Positions 25,460 to 63,265 of a stretch of DNA of 64,000 nt are shown here, in pieces; position 1 is the first letter of the stretch; every line of letters begins with the position of its first letter. This DNA comes from Magnetovibrio blakemorei (GTDB taxonomy: Bacteria; Pseudomonadota; Alphaproteobacteria; Rhodospirillales; Magnetovibrionaceae). Position numbers and translations under genes: made by a program. The notes under the pieces were generated by a model that worked only from the letters and a program-made list of their open reading frames with translations, was not told the origin of the DNA and ran no database searches. Location: positions 13,313 to 77,312 of the forward strand of contig NZ_MCGG01000011.1 of NCBI RefSeq assembly GCF_001746755.1, written 5' to 3'.

Positions 25460-25580
25460 CCCTCCATAAATCATCCCCGTCACCTCATCTCCCTCATTTA
25501 GGCAAAATTCATGCTTATCGTTTGCCGTAATTTTGACATAGCCATCAAAGACATTGGCCCCATGGAGACTGTGCAACACC

Positions 25581-26780
25581 ATGGAAACTGAACAGATGTC
25601 CAATCCCCATCGTTTTTTATTCCGTATGGCTTTATTTCTTTCCGCGGTTGCGGTCGCCATCGGTGCAGTCTACCAACCCCTTCTCAACGCCTTTATGGCC
25701 AACGCCCCCTTGAACGGCTTGATCATCGGGGTGTTTTTATTGGGCATGGCTTATAACTTTCGCCAAGTAATTCAACTTGGTCCCGAAGTATCCTGGATTG
25801 AAGACTTTCGCGAAAGCCATTCTTTGGGTGCACAGCGCCCCCACATCGCGTCTTCATCGCAGCCCCCCAAGGCGACCAAAAAGCTTCGTCCTCCGCGCCT
25901 GCTGGCGCCGTTGGCGGCGATGGTTGCGGGTCGTAAAGAAATCAAACTCAGCGCCATGGCCCTGCGCTCGGTGCTGGACGGCATCGCCAGCCGCTTGGAC
26001 GAACAACGCGATATTTCGCGCTATACCATCGGCCTGTTGGTGTTTTTAGGCCTGTTGGGCACGTTTTGGGGCCTGCTGGACACGTTGAGCGCCATTCGCA
26101 ACGTCATCGCCAACATTCAAATCGGTGGCGGCGGTGATATCACATCTATGTTTGATGAGCTCAAACGCGGTCTTGAAGCCCCCTTGGCGGGCATGGGCAC
26201 GGCGTTTTCCAGCTCTCTGTTCGGCTTGGCCGGATCGTTGGTGTTGGGCTTTTTAGACTTAACCACGGGCCAGGCGCAAAACCGCTTTTACACCGAATTG
26301 GAAGACTGGCTAGCCAGCTTGGCAAAACTGTCGGGCGGCACGCTCAGCGCCGACGGCGACCAAACCGTTCCCGCTTACGTCGAAGCGCTTTTGGAGCAAA
26401 CCGCCGAAAGCCTGGAAAATCTGCAACGCACCATGGCGCGCGGCGAAGAAACCCGCATCCATACCTCCGAAGCACTGAACCTGTTATCGGAAAAGATGAG
26501 CACCATCACCGACTTCATGCAGACCGAACAGGTCATCATGAAAAAGCTCGCCGAAACCCATATGGACTTAAAACCCGCCCTGGAACGCATTGCTGGCGGG
26601 GACTTGATGACGGGCGGCAAGGACGGCATGGATGACGCCACCCGCACCCACATCCGCAACATCGATTTGGTGCTTTCGCGCATGCTTGAAGAAAGCCGCA
26701 CCGGGCGCGAAGAAATGGTCAGTCAAATGCGCAGCGAAATCAAACTGCTCGCCCGTACCGTCGCCGGTCGCGGCGAATAG
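25581..26780 (+). CDS. MotA/TolQ/ExbB-like proton-channel protein
   Basis: A 399-residue membrane protein of the MotA/TolQ/ExbB superfamily. Two helices come near the N-terminus (about 14-36 and 42-60). A cytoplasmic stretch follows, then YTIGLLVFLGLLGTFWGLLDT and GMGTAFSSSLFGLAGSLVLGF, the paired segments that line the ion channel in this family. The C-terminal 130 residues form a long helical tail (ESLENLQRTMARGEETRIHTSE). The start at 25581 (ATG, GGAG 12 nt upstream) is preferred over a TTG at 25554. Its partner begins 20 bp downstream. It is distinct from TolQ and from a flagellar MotA (shorter loops, long tail). Confidence 0.85.
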   Translation: METEQMSNPHRFLFRMALFLSAVAVAIGAVYQPLLNAFMANAPLNGLIIGVFLLGMAYNFRQVIQLGPEVSWIEDFRESHSLGAQRPHIASSSQPPKATKKLRPPRLLAPLAAMVAGRKEIKLSAMALRSVLDGIASRLDEQRDISRYTIGLLVFLGLLGTFWGLLDTLSAIRNVIANIQIGGGGDITSMFDELKRGLEAPLAGMGTAFSSSLFGLAGSLVLGFLDLTTGQAQNRFYTELEDWLASLAKLSGGTLSADGDQTVPAYVEALLEQTAESLENLQRTMARGEETRIHTSEALNLLSEKMSTITDFMQTEQVIMKKLAETHMDLKPALERIAGGDLMTGGKDGMDDATRTHIRNIDLVLSRMLEESRTGREEMVSQMRSEIKLLARTVAGRGE

Positions 26781-26800: not shown

Positions 26801-27889
26801 ATGGCCGCCCTATCGCGCCGCAATCGCAATCGCGCCGATATATGGCCGGGCTTCGTCGATGCCTTGGCATCGCTTTTGATGGTCATCATCTTTTTGCTGT
26901 TGGTATTTGTACTGGCGCAATTTTTCTTGGGCGAAGCGCTTTCGGGGCGCGACTCGGCGTTGAAAAAACTTGACCGTGAAGTGGCCGAACTGGTCGATAT
27001 GCTGGCCCTGGAACGCAACGCCAATACCAAACTGCGCAGCGACGTCAACCGCATGTCGGGGGAACTGCAAGCCAGCATTTCCGAAGGCGACCGACTGAAA
27101 CTTGAAATCGAAGACGGCAAGGCAGAGGTTTCTCGTCTGGTTGGCGACGTGGTTAAGCTGGAAGCGCTGAAAAAGCAGCTGGAAGCCGATATCGGCAAGC
27201 TTGCGACCGAAATCGACGAAAAGGATAAGGCGCTGCTCGCCGAACAAGATCTATCCGAAAGTGCACGTGCTGAAGTCGCCATGCTCAACGGCCAAATGGG
27301 TCAACTGCGCGACCAAATGGCGGCGCTCAACAAAGCCTTGGGGGCTGCGGAAACCAAAGCCAAAGACCAAAACGCTCAGATCGTATCGTTGGGCAAAAGG
27401 CTGAACGCCGCGCTGGCATCCAAAGTGATGGAGCTGTCGGCCTATCGGTCCGAATTTTTTGGCCGGTTGGCAAAAATTCTCGGCGCACAAGAAGGCATCG
27501 AAATCGTCGGCGACCGTTTTGTGTTCCAATCCGAAGTCCTGTTCGCCAGCGGTGAAGCGGAACTCAACATCGGGGCATACGATCAATTGCGCGGTTTGGC
27601 GGGAACGATCATTGACCTGCAAGTCCAAATCCCCGCGGACATCGATTGGGTGCTGCGGGTTGACGGCCATACTGATCGGGTTCCCATCCGCAATCTACAA
27701 TTCGCGTCGAACTGGGAGCTCAGCTCGGCCCGCGCCATTTCCGTGGTGAAGTTCCTCATTGAACAAGGCGTGCCTGCCAAACGTTTGGTGGCTGCGGGCT
27801 TTGGCGAATACCAACCGCTCACCACCGCCACCGATCCCACGTCCCTGACCCGCAACCGCCGCATTGAGTTGAAACTCACCCAGCGCTAG
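26801..27889 (+). CDS. MotB/OmpA-like protein with long coiled coil
   Basis: A 362-residue partner of the ExbB-like protein. One N-terminal membrane helix carries the stator-type Asp (GFVDALASLLMVIIFLLL, Asp20). A coiled coil of about 130 residues follows (SALKKLDREVAELVDML onward). A C-terminal OmpA-like peptidoglycan-binding domain has RVDGHTDRVP, NWELSSARAISVVKFL, GFGEYQP and NRRIELKLTQ, all key residues present. The SD GAGGAGG precedes the ATG. The layout (MotA-like plus MotB-like with long stalks) resembles the ZorAB pair of Zorya defence systems. No nuclease or helicase gene follows, and such pairs are common house genes in alphaproteobacteria, so a cell-envelope role is likelier. Confidence 0.85.
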   Translation: MAALSRRNRNRADIWPGFVDALASLLMVIIFLLLVFVLAQFFLGEALSGRDSALKKLDREVAELVDMLALERNANTKLRSDVNRMSGELQASISEGDRLKLEIEDGKAEVSRLVGDVVKLEALKKQLEADIGKLATEIDEKDKALLAEQDLSESARAEVAMLNGQMGQLRDQMAALNKALGAAETKAKDQNAQIVSLGKRLNAALASKVMELSAYRSEFFGRLAKILGAQEGIEIVGDRFVFQSEVLFASGEAELNIGAYDQLRGLAGTIIDLQVQIPADIDWVLRVDGHTDRVPIRNLQFASNWELSSARAISVVKFLIEQGVPAKRLVAAGFGEYQPLTTATDPTSLTRNRRIELKLTQR

Positions 27890-52934: not shown

Positions 52935-55900
52935 TCAATACAAAGAGCTTAACTGCCCGTCTGCCACGCGTTGGCGGTAGACCTCCATAAAACCTTGGAA
53001 ATTTTCAACATTTTTAACAATGGGCTCAAGCCCCCGATAATCGATCAAGCCTGTTTCCGGGGGCTCGGCAATCAATTTGAAGGCATCGGCAAAACTGGTT
53101 TTGGCCATGGCCGGACCATACATGTCAAGCAACCGCACGATGGCCACCTCATTACCGCTGAGCGTGTTGGCGATGGCCAAAGACAGCACGGCTGCCGCCT
53201 GGACTTCATCGAGTGGCTTGCGCGGTTTTACGCCCATAAGCTGGGTCATCTTGTTCAATGATTTAGAGGCGTTTTTCCAATCACCGGCGCGCCAATAAAT
53301 GTTGGACCGGATCATCTCCGCCTCTTGGCTGCTTTCAGGGTTCAGCAATTCGAGTGCGATTTGTGGCTGCTCCAAACCAATATGCGCCTGGGCGCGCAGC
53401 AGCACGCGCTGGCTCTCCAAGGCGTCAGGCAGTTTGGAGACTTGTGTTTTGTCGAGGCTCTCGATCGCCTTGTCATACTGTCGATCAAACAAGTAAATCA
53501 AAGCCAAACGCGCACCAACACGGGCTTTTTCTTCGCCTTTAAGACGAAATTCAATTTGAGCTTCCAAAAGGTCGGCGGCGCGGCTCAGCAAATCCACCCC
53601 CACCAACCGATCCGCCAAGCGGCGGATCATCTGGTCCCCCAAGGCCCCCGGCGGTGTCAATTCGCGGAACTCATCATACAACGCAATCGCCGTAACCGGC
53701 GGCAACACATCGGCCCCATTTTCCATATAGAGCATATTGAAGGCGTCGCTCATTTGTTTGGTGATCAAGTTGCTGTCGGGATTGTCCGGAAAATAAGTGG
53801 CCGCTTGGCGCAGCGTGCGTAACCCTTCGCGGTAAAGCTGTTGGTCCAAATACAAGGTGCCCAAGCGGTGCAAAAGCTTAAATTCAAATTCATCGCCCCG
53901 CCAAACAAAGCGCAATTTTTCATATTCTTCGATGGCATCCTTGGGCGTAAAGTGTCCTTGGCGCAGCAGCAATTCGGTACGGGCGACGGCAGCTTTGGCG
54001 CGTGAGGGACGGTGACGCCCTTCCATGGCACGTTCCCAATCTCCAATCGCCCCATCAAAATCGCCACTGACTTCCTTCAACTTACCCGAGACGTAATCGA
54101 TCTGATCTTGCTGCGCACGACTCGGATTGTCCAGGTTAAGCACTTCCAAATATTGCCCCGCCTGTTTAACATCGCCCAACTCGACCGCAGCTTGTGCCAC
54201 CCACAACGCCGTCGGAATCTTCAGCGATTTGGGATACGGCTGGGTGATGGAGCCGGTTTTGCGCAGTTCATAGGCGACGTCGGGCAAATGGCCTTCTTCG
54301 GCAACCACCGCCGCACGCCAGAACGTGGCTTCGTCATAAGGGTCGAGATTGGGGTTGTTCAAATCCGTGCGGGCATCATCCAAGCGCCCCATCATCCAAC
54401 TGGCGGCCCCTTTCATCATCAAGTATTCTGGATCCGCTGCGTATTCGGGTTCGACCCGGACCATTTCAGACAGCACGCCCAAGGACTCGGCCTCAAAACC
54501 ATTGGCGAAATAAAACTGCGCCAAATCATGTTGGGTTTGCTTTTTGATGCGATCATTTTTGGCAAAGGCGACTTCCCTTTGTAAGTCTTGTTTGGTTTTG
54601 GTAAACGATTGCAAATCCGGTCGTTTCCATTTTTCCAAGTCCAAGACCCGGGTCATGGGCCGCAATGAGCCCATGCCTGTGCTTGACGCCAATTGCTGCT
54701 GCAATTCGACATTGGCTTTTTCTTCGGCGCTCACACTGGAAATTTGCAAGGTTCCGGTGCTGGTGATTTCCACACCTTGGCGCAACGGTCGCACGCGCAA
54801 ATCATCCGACAGCGGCTTGATCACGACGCCTTGCTTTGAAGGCAACAACTGCACTTGCGGATACGACCATATGCGCGACACTCCGTGCCCCAACGGGATC
54901 ACCGGTATAACCACCAAGTTGTCGCCCACTTCGGGATCGCGAAAAGCAATGATGTTTCCCGGTTCGGGAACCGACACGAACAAACGCGCACCCAAGGGCG
55001 AGTCCGGCTGAGCATCGGCTTGCAATGGTGCGCTGGGAATCAGCGGCTGAGGTGCAAATTCCAAAATCCAAGCCAACCCGGCGCGTTTGATATCAGGGTT
55101 CACGCTTTCCGCGGTGGTCATCCGCAAAACCGCACCGTTGCGCGATGGCACCTGTTCAACCGCCGTGATCAGAGCCGCGCCGTCTTTAAGCAAGGCTTGG
55201 GTGTCGATGGTAGCGCGTTTGTCGAAGACCACCCACAGATCACCCGCACGGCGAAACACCGCCGCGCCGACGGGTTCATCCCAGTTAAACTTCAAGGCCA
55301 CGACGCCTTCCATGATCGAGCTGGCCTGGGCGCGGGTTTGCACCGGAGCTTGCTCAGGGGCCTGTTCAGAAGCCTGTCCAGAAGCTTGCTCTGTAACTTG
55401 GTCGGGAGCCTTCAACTCCAAGGGCATTGCCTTGGTTTCAGGGGATGTGTCTGCCGCTTGAGGCTGGACCGCGGGGGAGGTGGCGGCTTGTTCGACGGCA
55501 GCAACCGGTGCAGAACGGGGCGCAGGAGGTTGATCCCCCCCTTGCACCGCTTGTGCGGGGGACTGAGCCGGCGCAGGTGTCGCGGCCGCCTGCGTCCCCG
55601 GAGGATACACATCAACGATGACTTTGGGGCCACTGGTCGAAGTCTTGATATCTGAAGTGGCCGCCACCTTTAAGGTAACGCTGAGCTTGCCGCCCTGAGT
55701 AGAACTTTCAGCGCCTTTGACATTGCGAATGTTCCCGCTGGCCAAGCGGTTGAGGTTAACCTGCCCAGGATTGGAAAATTGAAGTGTGGCCTTGTCTGCT
55801 GAGCGAACAAGATCAAACGTCGTCGTGCTGGGCCAATCAAAAACGATCCGGGTATAATCTTTGTGCACCCCCGTGCGCACGCCGATGGTCGGCCCATCCC

Positions 55901-56318
55901 CTGGTGCTGTGGACGCGGTTTTGGACACGGCAATGGCCGCCGTCTCGGCCTTGGTGGCGCTGACGATGTCCACCACCACCGAGGAGCCGCTGTCATAACT
56001 GCGCACCGAAAAATCACCCCGAACGCGCAACACGACCGTTGCGTCATTTGGCGCAGCTTCAGTGGCCGTTACCAATTGCCCCAGACCGCGCATAATCGGG
56101 CGCAGATCCGCTTGTATGGGGCGTGAAAAATTCACCACCAAACGATTGCCATCACGAACCGCTTGATGACCAACGGGCTGTGGCCAACGAAATGTAATGC
56201 GACCATAACCGTCGCCCTGGCTGGTGCGCACCTGAACTTGATCAGCCCCAGCGGGTGACGTGAGCAACAGGCTCCCCAGCACAAACATCACGCTGAATAT
56301 GGCACCAAAGCGCTTCAT
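52935..56318 (-). CDS. Large periplasmic protein with AMIN-like and TPR regions
   Basis: A 1127-residue exported protein (signal cleaved near PAGA-DQ). Three tandem AMIN-like beta modules lie in the first 420 residues: about 26-125, 145-240 and 335-420, with RITFRWPQPV, RIVFDWPST and ALKFNWDEPV as matching strands. A Pro/Gln/Ala-rich linker separates the second and third modules. From about residue 560 to the end it is alpha-helical, with TPR-like pairs (FYFANGFEAESLGVLSEMV, LHRLGTLYLDQQLYREGL). It shares a TGATG overlap with motB upstream. AMIN domains target peptidoglycan, so it may anchor or organise the stator; its function is untested. Confidence 0.85.
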   Translation of the reverse strand: MKRFGAIFSVMFVLGSLLLTSPAGADQVQVRTSQGDGYGRITFRWPQPVGHQAVRDGNRLVVNFSRPIQADLRPIMRGLGQLVTATEAAPNDATVVLRVRGDFSVRSYDSGSSVVVDIVSATKAETAAIAVSKTASTAPGDGPTIGVRTGVHKDYTRIVFDWPSTTTFDLVRSADKATLQFSNPGQVNLNRLASGNIRNVKGAESSTQGGKLSVTLKVAATSDIKTSTSGPKVIVDVYPPGTQAAATPAPAQSPAQAVQGGDQPPAPRSAPVAAVEQAATSPAVQPQAADTSPETKAMPLELKAPDQVTEQASGQASEQAPEQAPVQTRAQASSIMEGVVALKFNWDEPVGAAVFRRAGDLWVVFDKRATIDTQALLKDGAALITAVEQVPSRNGAVLRMTTAESVNPDIKRAGLAWILEFAPQPLIPSAPLQADAQPDSPLGARLFVSVPEPGNIIAFRDPEVGDNLVVIPVIPLGHGVSRIWSYPQVQLLPSKQGVVIKPLSDDLRVRPLRQGVEITSTGTLQISSVSAEEKANVELQQQLASSTGMGSLRPMTRVLDLEKWKRPDLQSFTKTKQDLQREVAFAKNDRIKKQTQHDLAQFYFANGFEAESLGVLSEMVRVEPEYAADPEYLMMKGAASWMMGRLDDARTDLNNPNLDPYDEATFWRAAVVAEEGHLPDVAYELRKTGSITQPYPKSLKIPTALWVAQAAVELGDVKQAGQYLEVLNLDNPSRAQQDQIDYVSGKLKEVSGDFDGAIGDWERAMEGRHRPSRAKAAVARTELLLRQGHFTPKDAIEEYEKLRFVWRGDEFEFKLLHRLGTLYLDQQLYREGLRTLRQAATYFPDNPDSNLITKQMSDAFNMLYMENGADVLPPVTAIALYDEFRELTPPGALGDQMIRRLADRLVGVDLLSRAADLLEAQIEFRLKGEEKARVGARLALIYLFDRQYDKAIESLDKTQVSKLPDALESQRVLLRAQAHIGLEQPQIALELLNPESSQEAEMIRSNIYWRAGDWKNASKSLNKMTQLMGVKPRKPLDEVQAAAVLSLAIANTLSGNEVAIVRLLDMYGPAMAKTSFADAFKLIAEPPETGLIDYRGLEPIVKNVENFQGFMEVYRQRVADGQLSSLY

Positions 56319-57028
56319 CAGTTGCCCTCGACGGTGGGGAAGACGACGATGTCGACGCGGCGCCCCAACTTGGCACGGTCTTCCGCATCGATGTCCGGCA
56401 ACTGCGCAAATCGGCTATCGGCATAGCCAAAGGCAATGATATCGTCTGTATATCCTGATTGGCGCAAAACGTTTGCAACAGCGGAAGCGCGCGCAACCGA
56501 CAATTCCCAGTTGGTCGAAAAACCGCTTTCTTTCGACGGTTTTGCCGGATCCGTATGGCCGTTCACGCCAACCTGATTGCCCACATTGCGCAACAAGCTT
56601 CCCAAAGTGAACAGGGCCGAGCGGGCTTCGTCAGGCATTTGTGCTTTGCCCGACGGAAACAACAAGTCACCCGGCAAGGCCACCACCAAACGGTCATCAA
56701 GCAGCATAATCCTAGAAAACTTGAGCAGCTCATCCCCTTCTACGCCGCGCTGTAAAACACCGGACAGATAGTCCAAGTCGGTCGCTTGGCGACGAAAAAT
56801 GGTGCCGATGTTAAATTCCGCCGTGGCCGCCGCCACGGTGGTCAACTTACCCGGATTCAACGTCTGGGTCAGGGTATCGGTCATCGCATCCCATTTATCC
56901 ATCTGCACCGACGACATGGAATACAACAACACAAAGAAGGTCAGCATCAGCGACACAAGGTCGGCAAACGTGATCATCCACGCCGCTTTGGGGCCTTCTG
57001 AGAGTTGGGGCAATTCTTCGTCTTGCAT
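56318..57028 (-). CDS. motB: Flagellar motor stator protein MotB
   Basis: MotB anchors the stator to peptidoglycan and carries the ion-binding Asp. The 236-residue product has MITFADLVSLMLTFFVLLYS with Asp23 in the FAD position. The OmpA-like domain has VNGHTDPAKPS, NWELSVARASAVANVL, IAFGYADSRF and GRRVDIVV, all key residues present. No motA gene is in the window, so its partner must be elsewhere. It lies between the MotB paralog and the AMIN/TPR gene, overlapping the latter. Confidence 0.92.
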   Translation of the reverse strand: MQDEELPQLSEGPKAAWMITFADLVSLMLTFFVLLYSMSSVQMDKWDAMTDTLTQTLNPGKLTTVAAATAEFNIGTIFRRQATDLDYLSGVLQRGVEGDELLKFSRIMLLDDRLVVALPGDLLFPSGKAQMPDEARSALFTLGSLLRNVGNQVGVNGHTDPAKPSKESGFSTNWELSVARASAVANVLRQSGYTDDIIAFGYADSRFAQLPDIDAEDRAKLGRRVDIVVFPTVEGN

Positions 57029-57056
57029 GTGAAAGCGATTAGGAGCGCATCAAGCG

Positions 57057-57761
57057 TTATTGAGCGCGTTTTAACCGATCCTCCTCAGAAAATTTCAATT
57101 TGGTCTTCTCAACGTCGCGGGTGTAAAACCAGATCATCACTTCACCGACATGTCCGGGACGGATTCCAACCGCGATACTGTCGGGCGGAATGCCGCGGGC
57201 GTTCATTTCTTCGGCAAAGGCCCCGGCGCGGCGGACCTCCAACGTTTCTTCTGTGGCCATGGTTTTGCCATCTGACGCCGTCGGTGCGCCGATGACAAAT
57301 TCCAAATCATAGCGCAGGCCCGCCGGACGGTTGGACAGCGCCGCCACGGTGCGATCCAGCAGCGGGAACATCGCCGAGCGAATGCCCGCTTCGTCTTTAA
57401 AAAACAAGCTGTCGGATTTCATCACCAAACGCATCTGACGTCCGGGCTGAACCGTTTCAACCTTATCGACCCCCAACGCGGTTGAAAAAATACCCGTAAC
57501 CTGTTGTTGGAATTCCTGGCCCGCCAAGACGTCTCCGTCCTTTGAAATAAACGTTTGCAAATCAGCAGAGGGCGGCACGATAGAGGTGAACGCACTGGAG
57601 AGGCTATCCATCACTTTTTTTGACTTGGTATCTTCAACCTTGGAAATTGTGACCAGCAAAATGAAGAAGGCGAGCACCACCAAGTACAGCCCAAGAAACA
57701 AGGCGACGGTGTTCGATTCCCCATCAGGAATCTTTCTGATCTCATCGTTCGCAGTGCCCAT
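57057..57761 (-). CDS. MotB-like paralog without the ion-binding Asp
   Basis: A 234-residue protein with a MotB layout: short N-terminus, one membrane helix (NTVALFLGLYLVVLAFFILLV), and a periplasmic domain. Aligned to MotB next door, FADLVSLMLTFFVLL becomes FLGLYLVVLAFFILL, so Asp23 is replaced by Gly24. In the C-terminal domain the GHTD and terminal NRRV motifs are also lost, though VRRAGAFAEEMNARGIPPDSI keeps the fold trace. It is probably a structural or regulatory stator partner, not a channel. The start at ATG 57761 is preferred; a TTG at 57770 lies upstream. Confidence 0.8.
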   Translation of the reverse strand: MGTANDEIRKIPDGESNTVALFLGLYLVVLAFFILLVTISKVEDTKSKKVMDSLSSAFTSIVPPSADLQTFISKDGDVLAGQEFQQQVTGIFSTALGVDKVETVQPGRQMRLVMKSDSLFFKDEAGIRSAMFPLLDRTVAALSNRPAGLRYDLEFVIGAPTASDGKTMATEETLEVRRAGAFAEEMNARGIPPDSIAVGIRPGHVGEVMIWFYTRDVEKTKLKFSEEDRLKRAQ

Positions 57762-57775
57762 GGCGGACAATGACC

Positions 57776-58579
57776 CTAGTCAAAACTAGCCAAAAGATCA
57801 TCAATCTCAGCCTGGCTTTTGGCCTTAGCGCCTAGCTGAGGACCCTCAAGAAGGTCAGCGTCAGTGAGTGTCGTTTTTGCCTCAGATTTTGGCTTGGTGG
57901 TTTTGTTTTTAACCTTGGGGGCAATCAATTCATCGCCCAGCGCCAACACCAATGCATCAATGCGGTCTTCGATGTTTTTCAACGCCGTAACCACCTTCCC
58001 GATACGCTGGCCCGTGATGTCTTGAAACGTGCAGGCTTCGTAAATGCTGGTGGTGGCGTCCATCAGTTTCGCGCCGACCTCATCCGTGACATCGCCCATC
58101 ACCCCTTCGACCAGTTCGCAGCTGTCCATAATCGTGTTTGTGGCCGTTGCGGTGGCTTCGATGATCGCGTCCAGTTCATCGGTGGCGCTGAGTAAAAATT
58201 CATCTTTGACATCATGGGGGGAAATGGCTGCAATTTCGCGTTTTGCCGCATCAATATATGCCGCGAGACGTTCCAACTCGTCATAAACGTCCGCGATCTC
58301 TGCCGACCTGCGCCCCGAGGCTATGGAGACAAAAGAGCTTTTGGTTTTGCATTTTGCAGGGCGAACGCCTGCAAGAGATTGGGCCGTCGGGGTTTTCTTG
58401 GTTTTACCCGTTCCCGCTGCTTTACCGGATGCCTTTAGTGCTTTCAATTTAACATTGGCACGCTTTACATCAGCCTTTGCACCAGCCTTAACGTCCGCCT
58501 TAGCACTCGTTTTGGTGCTGGCTTTGCGTGTGGCCTTTGGCTTTTCAGCCGTGGCCGTTTTCGACTTGCGTCCGGCCAT
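57776..58579 (-). CDS. cheZ: CheY-P phosphatase CheZ, with a basic N-terminal tail
   Basis: CheZ dephosphorylates CheY-P and keeps the flagellar signal short. The 267-residue product has the catalytic helix ACTFQDITGQRIGKVV, with Asp187 and Gln191 in the positions of E. coli Asp143 and Gln147. A C-terminal CheY-binding helix AEIDDLLASFD is also present. The first 60 residues are a Lys/Ala/Thr repeat-like tail (KSKTATAEKPKATRKASTK) not found in E. coli CheZ. The SD AAGGAG precedes the ATG. It lies between cheY and the MotB paralog. Confidence 0.92.
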   Translation of the reverse strand: MAGRKSKTATAEKPKATRKASTKTSAKADVKAGAKADVKRANVKLKALKASGKAAGTGKTKKTPTAQSLAGVRPAKCKTKSSFVSIASGRRSAEIADVYDELERLAAYIDAAKREIAAISPHDVKDEFLLSATDELDAIIEATATATNTIMDSCELVEGVMGDVTDEVGAKLMDATTSIYEACTFQDITGQRIGKVVTALKNIEDRIDALVLALGDELIAPKVKNKTTKPKSEAKTTLTDADLLEGPQLGAKAKSQAEIDDLLASFD

Positions 58580-58599: not shown

Positions 58600-58992
58600 T
58601 CAGAAGTCACCAAGCACGCTGACCATTTTAGATTTCAAGGTGGCTGCATTGAACGGCTTCACAATGTAGTTGGAAACCCCAGCCTCTTTCGCCGTAATGA
58701 CGTTTTCGGACTTGGATTCAGCGGTCACCATAATAAACGGGATATGCTTGAGCTTATCGTCTGCACGCACATGACGCAGCAATTCGATGCCGGTCATAGG
58801 CTCCATGTTCCAATCGGAAATGATCAAACCAAACTTACCGCCTGAATCTTTAAGAATTTCAAGCGCTTGCGTCCCATCTGTCGCTTCTTCAACATTTTCA
58901 AAGCCAAGTTGGCGAAGAAGATTCCTGATAATCCTAAGCATGGTCTTGTAATCATCCACGATCAGAACATTCATGTTCATGTCGACAGCCAT
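58600..58992 (-). CDS. cheY: Chemotaxis response regulator CheY
   Basis: Single-domain receiver that, when phosphorylated, binds FliM and CheZ. The 130-residue product has Asp13-Asp14, the phosphoacceptor Asp60 (IISDWNMEPMTGIELL), Thr90 and Lys112 in place. The start at 58992 has GGAG 8 nt upstream; the later ATGs would be too short. It opens a cheY-cheZ-MotB paralog-motB-AMIN/TPR operon, apart from the main che cluster, which is not here. Confidence 0.95.
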   Translation of the reverse strand: MAVDMNMNVLIVDDYKTMLRIIRNLLRQLGFENVEEATDGTQALEILKDSGGKFGLIISDWNMEPMTGIELLRHVRADDKLKHIPFIMVTAESKSENVITAKEAGVSNYIVKPFNAATLKSKMVSVLGDF

Positions 58993-59291: not shown

Positions 59292-60179
59292 TCACCCCCC
59301 TACAGCCCCCGGTTCGGGTAACTTGCGCAAGGCATTCAGCTCAACCGTCACTTCGCGAGCCCGAACGGGATTCATTTTTGCCATGATCGGGGCGAGAGAA
59401 CGCTCTTTCATCCGTTCCGCCACTTGAAGCAAAACGTCCATTTCCAGATCTTCAAAAATCAGCGCCGCATCCTTAGGCTTCATGCTTTCGTAAATTTTCA
59501 CCAAACTCATCAATTTAGCATCTTGCTGGTCATCATACGTCTTAATGAGGCTCTCAATCGTCGCCTGCAAGGCCTTGAAATCAGATATTTTTTGGTCAAT
59601 TCTCGATTCCGCAGCCGCCAAAAGGGCTTCACGGGTTTCCAACTCACGGCCACGCGAATCAATCTCGACGCGCCGTTCAGCCAACTTTTGCAACAAATCG
59701 ATTTCCGATTGGGTCAACAAGGTCGGATCATCCGCCAGCATCCTTGCGGCGACGGCGGCACGATCTTCTTCGCTCATCCCTCCGCCACTGCCGCCACTGG
59801 TTCCACCACCCGTGTCCGCATCCCCCCCATCATTGACCTGCAATTCAGATGGAACCGCTCCTGGCGCTGGTACAGAAGCGCCTGTCGGCGGTGTTTGAGC
59901 GGCGGTTTGCGCAATCGCTTCGGTGCTGCTGACCGAAACCGTGCCATTGAAAAAGCTGTCGAAACCATCCCAAATATCGCCCACACGGACCGTCAGGGTC
60001 AGCGTGCAAAAAAAGATCACCATCGGCAACAGGCGAATTTTCACCACCACCCGGCGCAAAAAGCTGGGTTCTTTGCGGGGCTGATCGTCGAAATCGAAAT
60101 CAGGAACGCCCTGGTCTTCCGAATGCGCCGGGCGCCGAATGGGGTTTATTTTACCGATGCTCATCGCTTTTTGTGCCAT
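59292..60179 (-). CDS. MotE-like flagellar protein
   Basis: A 295-residue inner-membrane protein with one helix (about 45-63), a Pro/Gly-rich linker, and a long coiled coil (RIDQKISDFKALQATIESLIKTY). The C-terminal MgtE-N-like fold contains LVKIYESMKPKDAALIFEDLEMDVLLQVAERMKERSLAPIMAKM. That C-terminal pattern marks the MotE family, a chaperone for MotC in Sinorhizobium; a MotC candidate is not seen here. It is last in the fliL-fliM-DUF6468 run. Confidence 0.88.
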   Translation of the reverse strand: MAQKAMSIGKINPIRRPAHSEDQGVPDFDFDDQPRKEPSFLRRVVVKIRLLPMVIFFCTLTLTVRVGDIWDGFDSFFNGTVSVSSTEAIAQTAAQTPPTGASVPAPGAVPSELQVNDGGDADTGGGTSGGSGGGMSEEDRAAVAARMLADDPTLLTQSEIDLLQKLAERRVEIDSRGRELETREALLAAAESRIDQKISDFKALQATIESLIKTYDDQQDAKLMSLVKIYESMKPKDAALIFEDLEMDVLLQVAERMKERSLAPIMAKMNPVRAREVTVELNALRKLPEPGAVGG

Positions 60180-60207: not shown

Positions 60208-60999
60208 TCATTTCATCGAACTGAGCGCTTTAAGCAACTCACGTGCCGCGTCTGTATCGCCGATGGAACCAGGTTCGTCGGCGAGCAAACGATCACCCAA
60301 CAATTTATCGTTGGGCTTTAAGCCACCCAAGCCTCCACCCAAGCGCTGGGTCGGGGAACCGGAAGGGCCCTGAGACTGGGGTTGATCCGAAAGAGGTCCT
60401 GGGTGCCCACCGCTAACGCGCGGCTTTGAAACAGATGGATCGACAGCGTTTTCAGGCCTGGACGGTTTGTTTTTAGATGCAAACATATTGCCACCGGCCC
60501 GTTGAGAGGGGGATTTTTCCGGAGTTCTGGTCGGCATTCTGTCGGCGTTCCTCTCGGAACGACCATTTGTCCGCCCCCCGCCTTGGGGGGCAGAGGCGGC
60601 GCGAATGGCCTGTTCAATCAAACGGCCGTCACCTTCGATTTCATCATCCATATCCCGATCGTTACCCTGCATCCGGTCTTGACCAAAGGTCTTGGCCGGG
60701 CGCCCCGCGGAGACCATCTGGTCTGCGGCGCGTGATCCGCGCTCCACCAAATAGGCAAGATCGTCGCGCAACACTTCGGCCTTATCCACTTCGGCTTGCA
60801 AAGCATCGCTTGACCCCTTGAGTTCGCGGATGCTGTCGTGGGCCTTGTCGGTGGCTTCGGCAAAGATCTTGGCAAGTTCTTGAAGTTCGTTTTTGTCGTT
60901 ACGCAATTGAGCCAAACGCTGGTTCAGACGCACCGCATAGATGATCGTCAGCACCAACAACAGCGCGATGATAACGTTAAGTATGAACGCAATTTGCAC
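60208..60999 (-). CDS. DUF6468 protein between fliM and motE
   Basis: A 263-residue protein with an N-terminal membrane helix (AFILNVIIALLLVLTIIYAV), a coiled coil of about 70 residues (ELQELAKIFAEATDKAHDSI), and a long Gly/Pro/Arg-rich disordered tail. DUF6468 proteins are found between fliM and motE in Rhodospirillales, as here; the function is unknown. The start is GTG at 60999 with GAGGT upstream. Confidence 0.8.
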   Translation of the reverse strand: MQIAFILNVIIALLLVLTIIYAVRLNQRLAQLRNDKNELQELAKIFAEATDKAHDSIRELKGSSDALQAEVDKAEVLRDDLAYLVERGSRAADQMVSAGRPAKTFGQDRMQGNDRDMDDEIEGDGRLIEQAIRAASAPQGGGRTNGRSERNADRMPTRTPEKSPSQRAGGNMFASKNKPSRPENAVDPSVSKPRVSGGHPGPLSDQPQSQGPSGSPTQRLGGGLGGLKPNDKLLGDRLLADEPGSIGDTDAARELLKALSSMK

Positions 61000-61044: not shown

Positions 61045-62202
61045 TCAGTCAATTTTCGGTTTTTCATAACGACCATCAATGCGAATGGCGATTTGATCGC
61101 CTCTTCGCCCCATACGCCCAAGATACATGGGAACATCACCGCATAATAGCATGACTTGCGATTGCGGGGTTGCCCCAAGATCGATGTGCGAACCTTTTTT
61201 CATATCAAAGACATCGCCCAAGCGCATGGTTTGGGTATCGAGAACCGCTTCCAGTTCAACCTCGGTCATCCACAGCTCTTCGGCCAAGTGAGTTTCCCAG
61301 ATGCTGTCACGGCCAAACTTTTCACCCATGAACATTTGCAGCAGCAACTCGCGAACCGGCTCCAAGGTCGCATAAGGCAGCATCAGCTCCATCTGCCCAC
61401 CACGATCTTCCATGTCAATGCGCAGGCGCGCCACGATGGCGGCGTTGGAAGGCCTTGAAATCGTTGCAAAACGAGGGTTTGTTTCCAGGCGATCAAAACG
61501 GAACGTAACCGGCGACAGCGGCTCAAACGCCCCCGACAGATCAGACAAAACCACATGCACCATGCGTTCAACCAAGGATCGTTCAATGGTGGTGTAAGGA
61601 CGGCCTTCGATACGCATCGCCGCCGTACCGCGGCGTCCGCCCAGCAAAACGTCAACGATGGAATAAATCAGCGAAGAGTCCACCGTCAAAAGACCGTAGT
61701 TGTCCCATTCCTCGGCTTTAAACACTGACAACATGGCCGGCAATGGAATGGAGTTCAGGTAGTCGCCAAACCGAATTGAGGTGATGTTGTCGAGCGATAC
61801 TTCGACGTTGTCGGAGGTGAAGTTTCGCAACGACGTCGACATCAGACGCACCAGACGGTCAAAAACGACTTCCAACATCGGCAAGCGTTCATAAGACACC
61901 AAGGCCGAATTGAGGATGGCCTGAATGCCCGATTTTTGATCGCCGTCGTCCTGCTCATCGTCAAAACCGAGCAGACTATCAATTTCATCTTGGTTGAGAA
62001 CGCGGGTGGATTCACGTGGCGCGGCACCGCCACCGCCGCCACCGCCGCCGCCATCTCCGGAATCCAGCATGGCAGCCCATTCGGCGGCGAGATCGTCCCC
62101 ATCGTCACCACCACCGCCGCCATCGGCATCATCTCCGCCCATGGAGGCAGCCCAGGCATCAGCCATGGCATCTTGGTCAACGTCGTCACCGGGCGCAGTC
62201 AT
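61045..62202 (-). CDS. fliM: Flagellar motor switch protein FliM
   Basis: FliM is the C-ring subunit that binds CheY-P. The 385-residue product has the CheY-binding motif LNQDEIDSLLGF at about residues 68-79. A 65-residue Asp/Gly-rich tail precedes it (with GGGGGGGGG and repeated DAD/DGD), so CheY docks behind a longer flexible arm than in E. coli. The FliM core follows, with LEVVFDRLVRLMSTSLRNFT, a GGXG-like SYLLGGR-type segment, and a C-terminal SpoA domain (TMRLGDVFDMKKGSHIDL). It lies between fliL and DUF6468. Confidence 0.95.
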   Translation of the reverse strand: MTAPGDDVDQDAMADAWAASMGGDDADGGGGGDDGDDLAAEWAAMLDSGDGGGGGGGGGAAPRESTRVLNQDEIDSLLGFDDEQDDGDQKSGIQAILNSALVSYERLPMLEVVFDRLVRLMSTSLRNFTSDNVEVSLDNITSIRFGDYLNSIPLPAMLSVFKAEEWDNYGLLTVDSSLIYSIVDVLLGGRRGTAAMRIEGRPYTTIERSLVERMVHVVLSDLSGAFEPLSPVTFRFDRLETNPRFATISRPSNAAIVARLRIDMEDRGGQMELMLPYATLEPVRELLLQMFMGEKFGRDSIWETHLAEELWMTEVELEAVLDTQTMRLGDVFDMKKGSHIDLGATPQSQVMLLCGDVPMYLGRMGRRGDQIAIRIDGRYEKPKID

Positions 62203-62227: not shown

Positions 62228-62779
62228 CTATTGGACAAGCATTTCCTTAAACAATACGTCGTTGACCTTGGCGGGAGCCACGGCCACGCTAACACGTTTC
62301 AATAATTCTTCTCGCAACCGATACATACCGGCCGAACCTTTTAAGTCTTCAACCCTGAGCTCACGCAGGTAGATTTGAAAGTTATCAATGATGCGCGGCA
62401 TCATTTGTTCAACGACGGCAATATCACTGGGACTTTCCAATTCCAAGCTGACGCGAATTTTCAAATAAACCGACTTTCGCCCACCCGTATTGATGTTCAC
62501 CAACATCTCTTCTAAATCGTAGAAGACCGCATCTCCGGAGATCACCTTGGCCTGGTCCCCCTCTGGGGCATGAGCCGCATTTTCTCCGCCGGACAGCATA
62601 TCGATAACCGGCTGCAAAAGACCGGTGAAATAGGCCGCGGCGGCACCACCCAATATCAGTACCAGCACAGCGGCCACGACGATCAACAAGCGTTTCCGGC
62701 CGGAGCCACCATCTCCGCCTTCCTCTTCGCCTTCGGCACCGTCGTCGTCTAGATCTTCTTCTGGCTCTTCGTCGGCCAT
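62228..62779 (-). CDS. fliL: Flagellar basal body protein FliL
   Basis: FliL forms a ring around the stator and raises motor output. The start at 62779 (MADEEPEEDLDDD) has GGAGA upstream; an ATG 15 codons earlier lacks an SD. The 183-residue product has an acidic Glu/Asp/Gly-rich N-terminus, one membrane helix (LLIVVAAVLVLILGGAAAAYF), and a stomatin-like periplasmic domain (VNINTGGRKSVYLKIRVSLE; GMYRLREELLKRV). It is the first gene of fliL-fliM-DUF6468-motE. Confidence 0.93.
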   Translation of the reverse strand: MADEEPEEDLDDDGAEGEEEGGDGGSGRKRLLIVVAAVLVLILGGAAAAYFTGLLQPVIDMLSGGENAAHAPEGDQAKVISGDAVFYDLEEMLVNINTGGRKSVYLKIRVSLELESPSDIAVVEQMMPRIIDNFQIYLRELRVEDLKGSAGMYRLREELLKRVSVAVAPAKVNDVLFKEMLVQ

Positions 62780-63265
62780 GCCGTCTCCGCGTCTTGCGTT
62801 CACTCGTTCAATCAGGGCTTCCATGCAGGCGCGTTACACGCACATGAAGCTCCCACCTGCGCCCCAGCCCGCACCTGGGCAGAGCCTTAAGATACCTCAG
62901 CTCATCACAATACGGTGCGGATGGTTAACAAGGGGTTGATCTCTTCAACAAAACCAAGGGGTTCCCCCCCATGTGCTCAAGGCCCTTAAGCGCCCCGGTT
63001 CCATATTTTGGTGCGAATCCGGATCTCAACCGTCCTTTAGCCATCCTACGCCCACCGACACAAAAACGGCAAGTTCTGCCGGGCATGGCCTGCCGACACA
63101 CCCTTTCTACCCCCGAAACTCGCCCCTAAAACACCACGCAACGCATTGTTATTGAACAATTTTATGTTTTGGCACAGTCCCTGCATACAGTTATGGCAAA
63201 GGCAGCGCTGCTCACGCAGTGACATAAAGCCAAACGGAACACGATCAGAACCAAAGGCAAGACAG
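62780..63265. other. Divergent region between fliL and flgF
   Basis: A 486-bp gap containing no gene I can support. Its main elements are the sigma-54 promoter of flgF and a small ATTGTT-ATTG-AACAAT inverted repeat at 63145-63160, just upstream of it. A GC-rich inverted stretch with CCCC/GGGG runs lies near 62950-63000, but no clear hairpin is formed. Confidence 0.55.
63170..63186 (+). promoter_or_regulatory. Sigma-54 (RpoN) promoter of flgF
   Basis: TGGCAC at 63170-63175, a 5-bp spacer AGTCC, then CTGCAT at 63181-63186. This matches TGGCAC-N5-TTGCW with one change (C for T), including the GG and GC pairs at -24 and -12. It lies 80 bp before the flgF start, and the 6-bp inverted repeat at 63145-63160 could be an activator or IHF site. 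Confidence 0.75.

Follow-up and report, generated by a model that had tools for sequence, protein, structure and literature searches.

In the 64,000-nucleotide stretch of the Magnetovibrio blakemorei genome analysed here (the window), a flagellar operon encodes, immediately before a normal motB, an intact MotB-like protein that lacks the ion-binding aspartate and is referred to below as PAR. Our findings suggest an undescribed motor unit in which two unlike MotB chains provide one ion site rather than two. On the strength of sequence comparisons, we lean towards the view that PAR is an obligate third stator subunit, which pairs with MotB inside the MotA ring to give a heterodimer with a single ion-binding site. 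The case for the fuller picture, a MotA5:MotB1:PAR1 stator in which the single site would halve the number of ions per ring turn, ancient and widespread in Alphaproteobacteria and with a counterpart in another class, seems to us evenly balanced.

Results

The genes concerned lie closely spaced on the minus strand in the order fliL-fliM-DUF6468-motE-cheY-cheZ-PAR-motB-TPR/AMIN. The genes fliL (62228–62824; Pfam 8e-20) and fliM (61045–62202; Pfam 1.5e-66) are followed by a gene for a DUF6468 protein at the pflI position (60208–60999; PF20072, 2.7e-15) and by motE (59292–60179), a homologue of the E-ring protein with a weak MgtE_N match and a match to a FlbB collar model at 2.1e-6. Two optional members of the cassette come next, a cheY-like response regulator (58600–58992; Response_reg 3.5e-28) and cheZ (57776–58579; CheZ 5.8e-12), which lies just upstream of PAR. 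PAR itself (57057–57761), recognized by its ORF, Pfam, profile and AF2 fold, comprises 234 residues from an ATG at 57761, or three more from a TTG at 57770 (ORF 57057–57770). A gap of 28 bp separates it from motB (56318–57028), whose 236-residue product carries Asp23 (56960–56962) and the GHTD peptidoglycan site, and is supported by Pfam matches to MotB_plug (3.5e-16) and OmpA (2e-11) as well as by its AF2 fold. The last gene (52935–56318) shares one base with the end of motB and encodes a large periplasmic protein of 1127 residues, MotK/MotC/PflA-like according to its Pfam TPR matches, a weak AMIN-like match and the gene order, which agrees with that described for motK and CC_2058 (PMC10954123, PMC13023049). 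Both the PAR and motB frames are intact, and the helices quoted by the first-pass annotation in describing an intact, Asp-less MotB paralog beside MotB were correct. Elsewhere in the window, inspection by eye of the ORF list revealed a second pair of MotA/ExbB-like and OmpA-type membrane proteins (25554–26780 and 26801–27889), with the helix FVDALASLLMVIIF and its Asp kept, of a kind listed as PRK09039 peptidoglycan-binding protein.

Profile comparisons and the modelled structure indicate that PAR is a MotB-fold protein. Its match to Pfam MotB_plug lies around the cut-off of 24 bits, at 23.8 bits for the window protein and 25.6 bits, above the cut-off, in the genome search. The profile of the PAR alignment matches the solved MotB structure 6ysf at 3.4e-9, and hhalign against the neighbouring MotB family gave an E of 1.2e-12 over most of the PAR length. 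The AF2 model (pLDDT 83.6) consists of one long helix and then a domain of OmpA-like fold, for which Foldseek retrieved the periplasmic structures of Salmonella and H. pylori MotB with E about 1e-6. No FliL family domain was found in PAR by Pfam, fliL being a separate gene of the operon. With one N-terminal helix and an OmpA-like fold, PAR does not have the make-up of MotK, MotC and PflA (signal peptide, AMIN, TPR), and its identity with MotK, MotC or MotE is ruled out, as these correspond to neighbouring genes (PMC10954123).

Alignment of 126 PARs and their MotBs placed the transmembrane helix of PAR at residues 20–43 (57642–57713) and its Gly27 (57690–57692) opposite MotB Asp23. This position is occupied by Ser in 62 PARs, Gly in 45, Ala in 16, and by Asn, Asp or a gap in one each, counts that are not fully independent since the named and class samples may repeat species. 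Ser, Gly or Ala thus stands in 123 of the 125 aligned PARs in place of the protonatable Asp typical of MotB, which is present in all 124 readable neighbouring MotBs. The loss is neither a sequencing accident nor recent decay, and a pseudogene or frameshift is ruled out by the intact, conserved frame. The helix around the site is almost purely made up of large hydrophobic residues, so the small residue points to a specific constraint rather than to drift, and the FF motif is invariant in both PAR and MotB chains, bar one Ile. The peptidoglycan-binding residues were previously described as lost; this holds for the Asp of GHTD and for RRV, but the Arg of the site, which aligns with MotB Arg180, is kept in 118 of the 126 sequences.

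The sole PAR with an Asp helix (G091, L148 5501–6259) resembles in that helix the neighbouring motB, from which it probably acquired it by exchange; it comes from a deep lineage represented in the sample by a single genome of its order. At nine loci, from several marine Rhodospirillales (L068, L072, L077, L093, L094, L098–L100 and L102), the Asp-bearing partner MotB has GYSDE, GFSEE or similar in place of GHTD, and peptidoglycan anchoring may there have been taken over by another part.

The first-pass annotation proposed to look for a fixed pair in relatives, and numerous families of Alphaproteobacteria proved to have one; the culturable strain Terasakiella pusilla DSM 6293 is among the carriers (L061). 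Among the named genomes, motB directly follows PAR at 65 of 66 loci, the other (L083) ending at a contig edge, and the TPR gene comes next in nearly every locus where the contig extends that far. Distant families of the class contributed 60 regions; PAR is present in 59 of these, with motB adjoining in all but L139, where the contig ends, and the sixtieth (L170) is an ordinary motA-motB. PAR and motB are therefore adjacent at all loci that a contig end does not interrupt, and in 48 of 123 measurable pairs they overlap by 4 nt, which points to coupled translation. The PAR profile matches 100 of 378 good genomes of the class, which together with the 59 regions rules out a pair limited to the vicinity of this genus; no PAR match was found in plasmid records. 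At one locus (L147, G310) PAR, motB and the TPR gene are each broken up, suggestive of assembly errors or of joint decay.

Cassettes were also fetched from 18 genomes with DUF6468 but no strong PAR match there, and from G262, which turned out to have a divergent PAR-motB pair. Two of the 18 cassettes are truncated at a contig end (G035, G038), and G088 carries a divergent pair outside the flagellar cassette (L281), moved as a unit and with a 4-nt overlap. The other 15 lead from motE or cheY/cheZ to the TPR gene without an intervening PAR or motB; in one of them (G294) a 4.5 kb gap at that place has no match to either. All 17 sampled PAR-less genomes, 15 of them with an otherwise intact cassette, also lack the cassette motB. 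As 15 cassettes keep motE and the TPR gene without the pair, the scaffold genes outlast PAR, which the cassette MotB does not. PAR is conserved at more than 100 loci and missing only together with motB.

Three further MotA-MotB pairs and a single orphan motA are present in the source genome, the orphan within fliF-fliG-fliH-fliN-motA-flbD-flhA. A MotA of this fliN-motA-flbD type (47–66% identity) occurs in 30 of the 31 genomes whose cassette includes the pair, the exception being G106 (95% complete). The 30 MotA loci returned, from 29 of these genomes and G088, are all adjoined by flbD, with fliN on the opposite side where the locus reaches. Of the 18 genomes whose cassette lacks the pair, G088, that of the relocated pair, is the only one with this MotA. 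The dedicated MotA is consequently found in 31 of 32 pair-bearing and 0 of 17 pair-less genomes (Fisher 2.8e-12, relatedness ignored). Three genomes (G231, G126 and G120) have one MotA match and no MotB_plug proteins other than PAR and MotB, so that the dedicated MotA, PAR and MotB seem, from these searches, to be their only stator.

The core of the E. coli MotB dimer is formed by positions 31, 34, 38, 41 and 45 (PMC10659934). Mean volumes at the first two are smaller in MotB than in PAR (104 vs 161 and 144 vs 191 cubic angstrom), those at 38 and 41 are equal in size, and at 45 MotB is the larger (189 vs 130 cubic angstrom). Three size-complementary positions (31, 34 and 45) are what a mixed coiled coil would show, although a PAR homodimer of different geometry could likewise account for the PAR core residues. 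Pairwise covariation between PAR and MotB revealed nothing clear at a Neff of 94, and correlations in volume at the core were weak, some of them positive and some negative.

A comparable arrangement, motA-motB'-motB-fliL-fliM, is found in a different class of the phylum, where it occurs in one family and its relative (L211–L216, L218–L220, L222 and L223). In motB' the Asp is replaced by Glu or Gln, and the helix pattern resembles that of PAR (size differences, r 0.80). PARs form one clade (100/100) in a mixture-model tree, which groups them with motB' (98/95) without rejecting a clade of PAR and MotB (p 0.17); FastTree groups PAR with its MotB (0.98), and a tree built without the helix leaves the branching order of PAR, MotB and motB' unresolved. 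One ancient origin of PAR and motB' or two parallel origins are both possible and compatible with the trees. Tandems of motA-motB-motB with Asp in both copies were also seen in other families of the phylum (L217 and L228).

Discussion

Among the readings offered by the first-pass annotation, the mixed MotB dimer is the best supported, if short of proof, given that PAR is inherited together with a particular MotB and a particular type of MotA, and given the complementary cores and the motA-motB'-motB operon. A MotB:PAR heterodimer is our best guess since the MotA ring has room for two B chains. We propose that PAR pairs with the neighbouring MotB inside a pentamer of the dedicated MotA encoded in the fliG-fliH-fliN-motA-flbD operon. 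The ion-binding Asp would then reside on the MotB chain only, while PAR would complete the axle with its own helix and add an OmpA-like periplasmic domain of its own, degenerate at the peptidoglycan site. Rather than bind peptidoglycan, this domain may make contact with scaffold proteins from its own operon, namely MotE of the E-ring or the TPR/AMIN protein. Should the 5:2 rotary model prove correct, about 5 ions would pass through such a stator per MotA turn versus 10. In E. coli it is harmful for a single MotB chain to lose its Asp, which counts against a one-Asp axle. Both aspartates are assumed to need protonation for rotation (PMC10659934), and an axle with a single Asp would accordingly require a modified cycle.

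The main rival, though in our judgement an unlikely one, is that PAR sits outside the MotA ring and, as an adaptor or assembly factor anchored in the membrane, tethers the stator to FliL, to the E-ring of MotE or to the TPR/AMIN scaffold; the assembly factor suggested earlier survives in this form, ranked below the mixed dimer. The operon also encodes FliL, MotE and the MotK/PflA-like TPR protein, the binding partners of MotB2 in C. sphaeroides include MotK and MotE (PMC10954123), and an adaptor would fit a protein that has lost peptidoglycan-binding residues yet keeps the OmpA-like fold. However, the 15 sampled genomes that keep motE and the TPR gene do without PAR, and an outside anchor would have no need for the MotB-specific FF core of the helix or for the small residue in place of the Asp, both of which are preserved. 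Because PAR tracks the dedicated MotA and MotB, and not MotE and the TPR protein, it appears to be a stator subunit rather than a scaffold part.

It is improbable, and clearly less likely than an outside adaptor, that PAR homodimers or mixed dimers make up an ion-inactive stator serving as brake, plug or reserve, with torque tuned by titration of MotA. Loss of the Asp should indeed render a MotA:PAR homodimer unit inert, and coupled translation would fix the ratio of the two proteins. An optional regulator should nevertheless sometimes be lost, and the sampled cassette MotB never occurs without PAR, which is kept wherever MotB is, even where both are the only B-type proteins; a dedicated brake, as first suggested, thus loses ground where the pair is the sole detectable B-type stator set. 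That PAR is a decaying duplicate without distinct function, as its faster evolution than MotB (long branches) and the loss of two motif classes might suggest, has next to no probability and is already contradicted by intact frames, fixed positions and strict synteny over more than 100 loci, with PAR absent only together with motB.

Our search of the openly accessible literature found no description of an Asp-less or paired MotB partner. Like MotB/PomB, the B subunit of MotA5MotB2, PAR has one N-terminal transmembrane helix with FF, followed by an amphipathic helix and an OmpA-like periplasmic fold, but it has neither the ion-binding Asp nor the GHTD or RRV motif and always stands beside a normal motB. 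In Aquifex aeolicus two MotB proteins, MotB1 and MotB2, share an operon with one MotA; in the helix the two share 97% identity, and as a chimera in E. coli either one functioned with MotA by itself (PMC4525482), whereas the PAR helix is diverged and lacks the Asp. The gliding machinery of Myxococcus also combines two MotB-like proteins with one MotA-like protein, and heterodimerisation is there an open question as well; unlike PAR, both AglQ and AglS keep the Asp, and the system is not flagellar (PMC9389320). MotK/MotE of the Cereibacter sphaeroides Fla2 system and MotC/MotE of Sinorhizobium occupy the same operon neighbourhood as in the window (PMC10954123, PMC13023049); PAR is neither MotK nor MotE, and the C. 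sphaeroides operon has motA2 and motK but no second MotB (PMC10954123). PAR shares with CP1-4 of Rhodobacterales fla1 the character of an undescribed alphaproteobacterial flagellar protein, but is ruled out as one of them, since the parts of that report available to us place CP1-4 only in Rhodobacterales fla1 clusters and describe no MotB-like nature (PMC11974857).

Should the heterodimer exist, a natural one-Asp stator would provide a direct test of the rotary cycle, including step size, ions per turn and the need for both sites. Models of the 5:2 rotary motor treat the two MotB chains as equivalent, with their aspartates taking turns. A one-site stator would represent a gear change akin to the carboxylate loss in rotor subunits of V-type ATPases. 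PAR adds an undescribed, strictly conserved motor component to many Alphaproteobacteria, including magnetotactic and marine lineages, where it stands beside the recently recognised E-ring and scaffold proteins.
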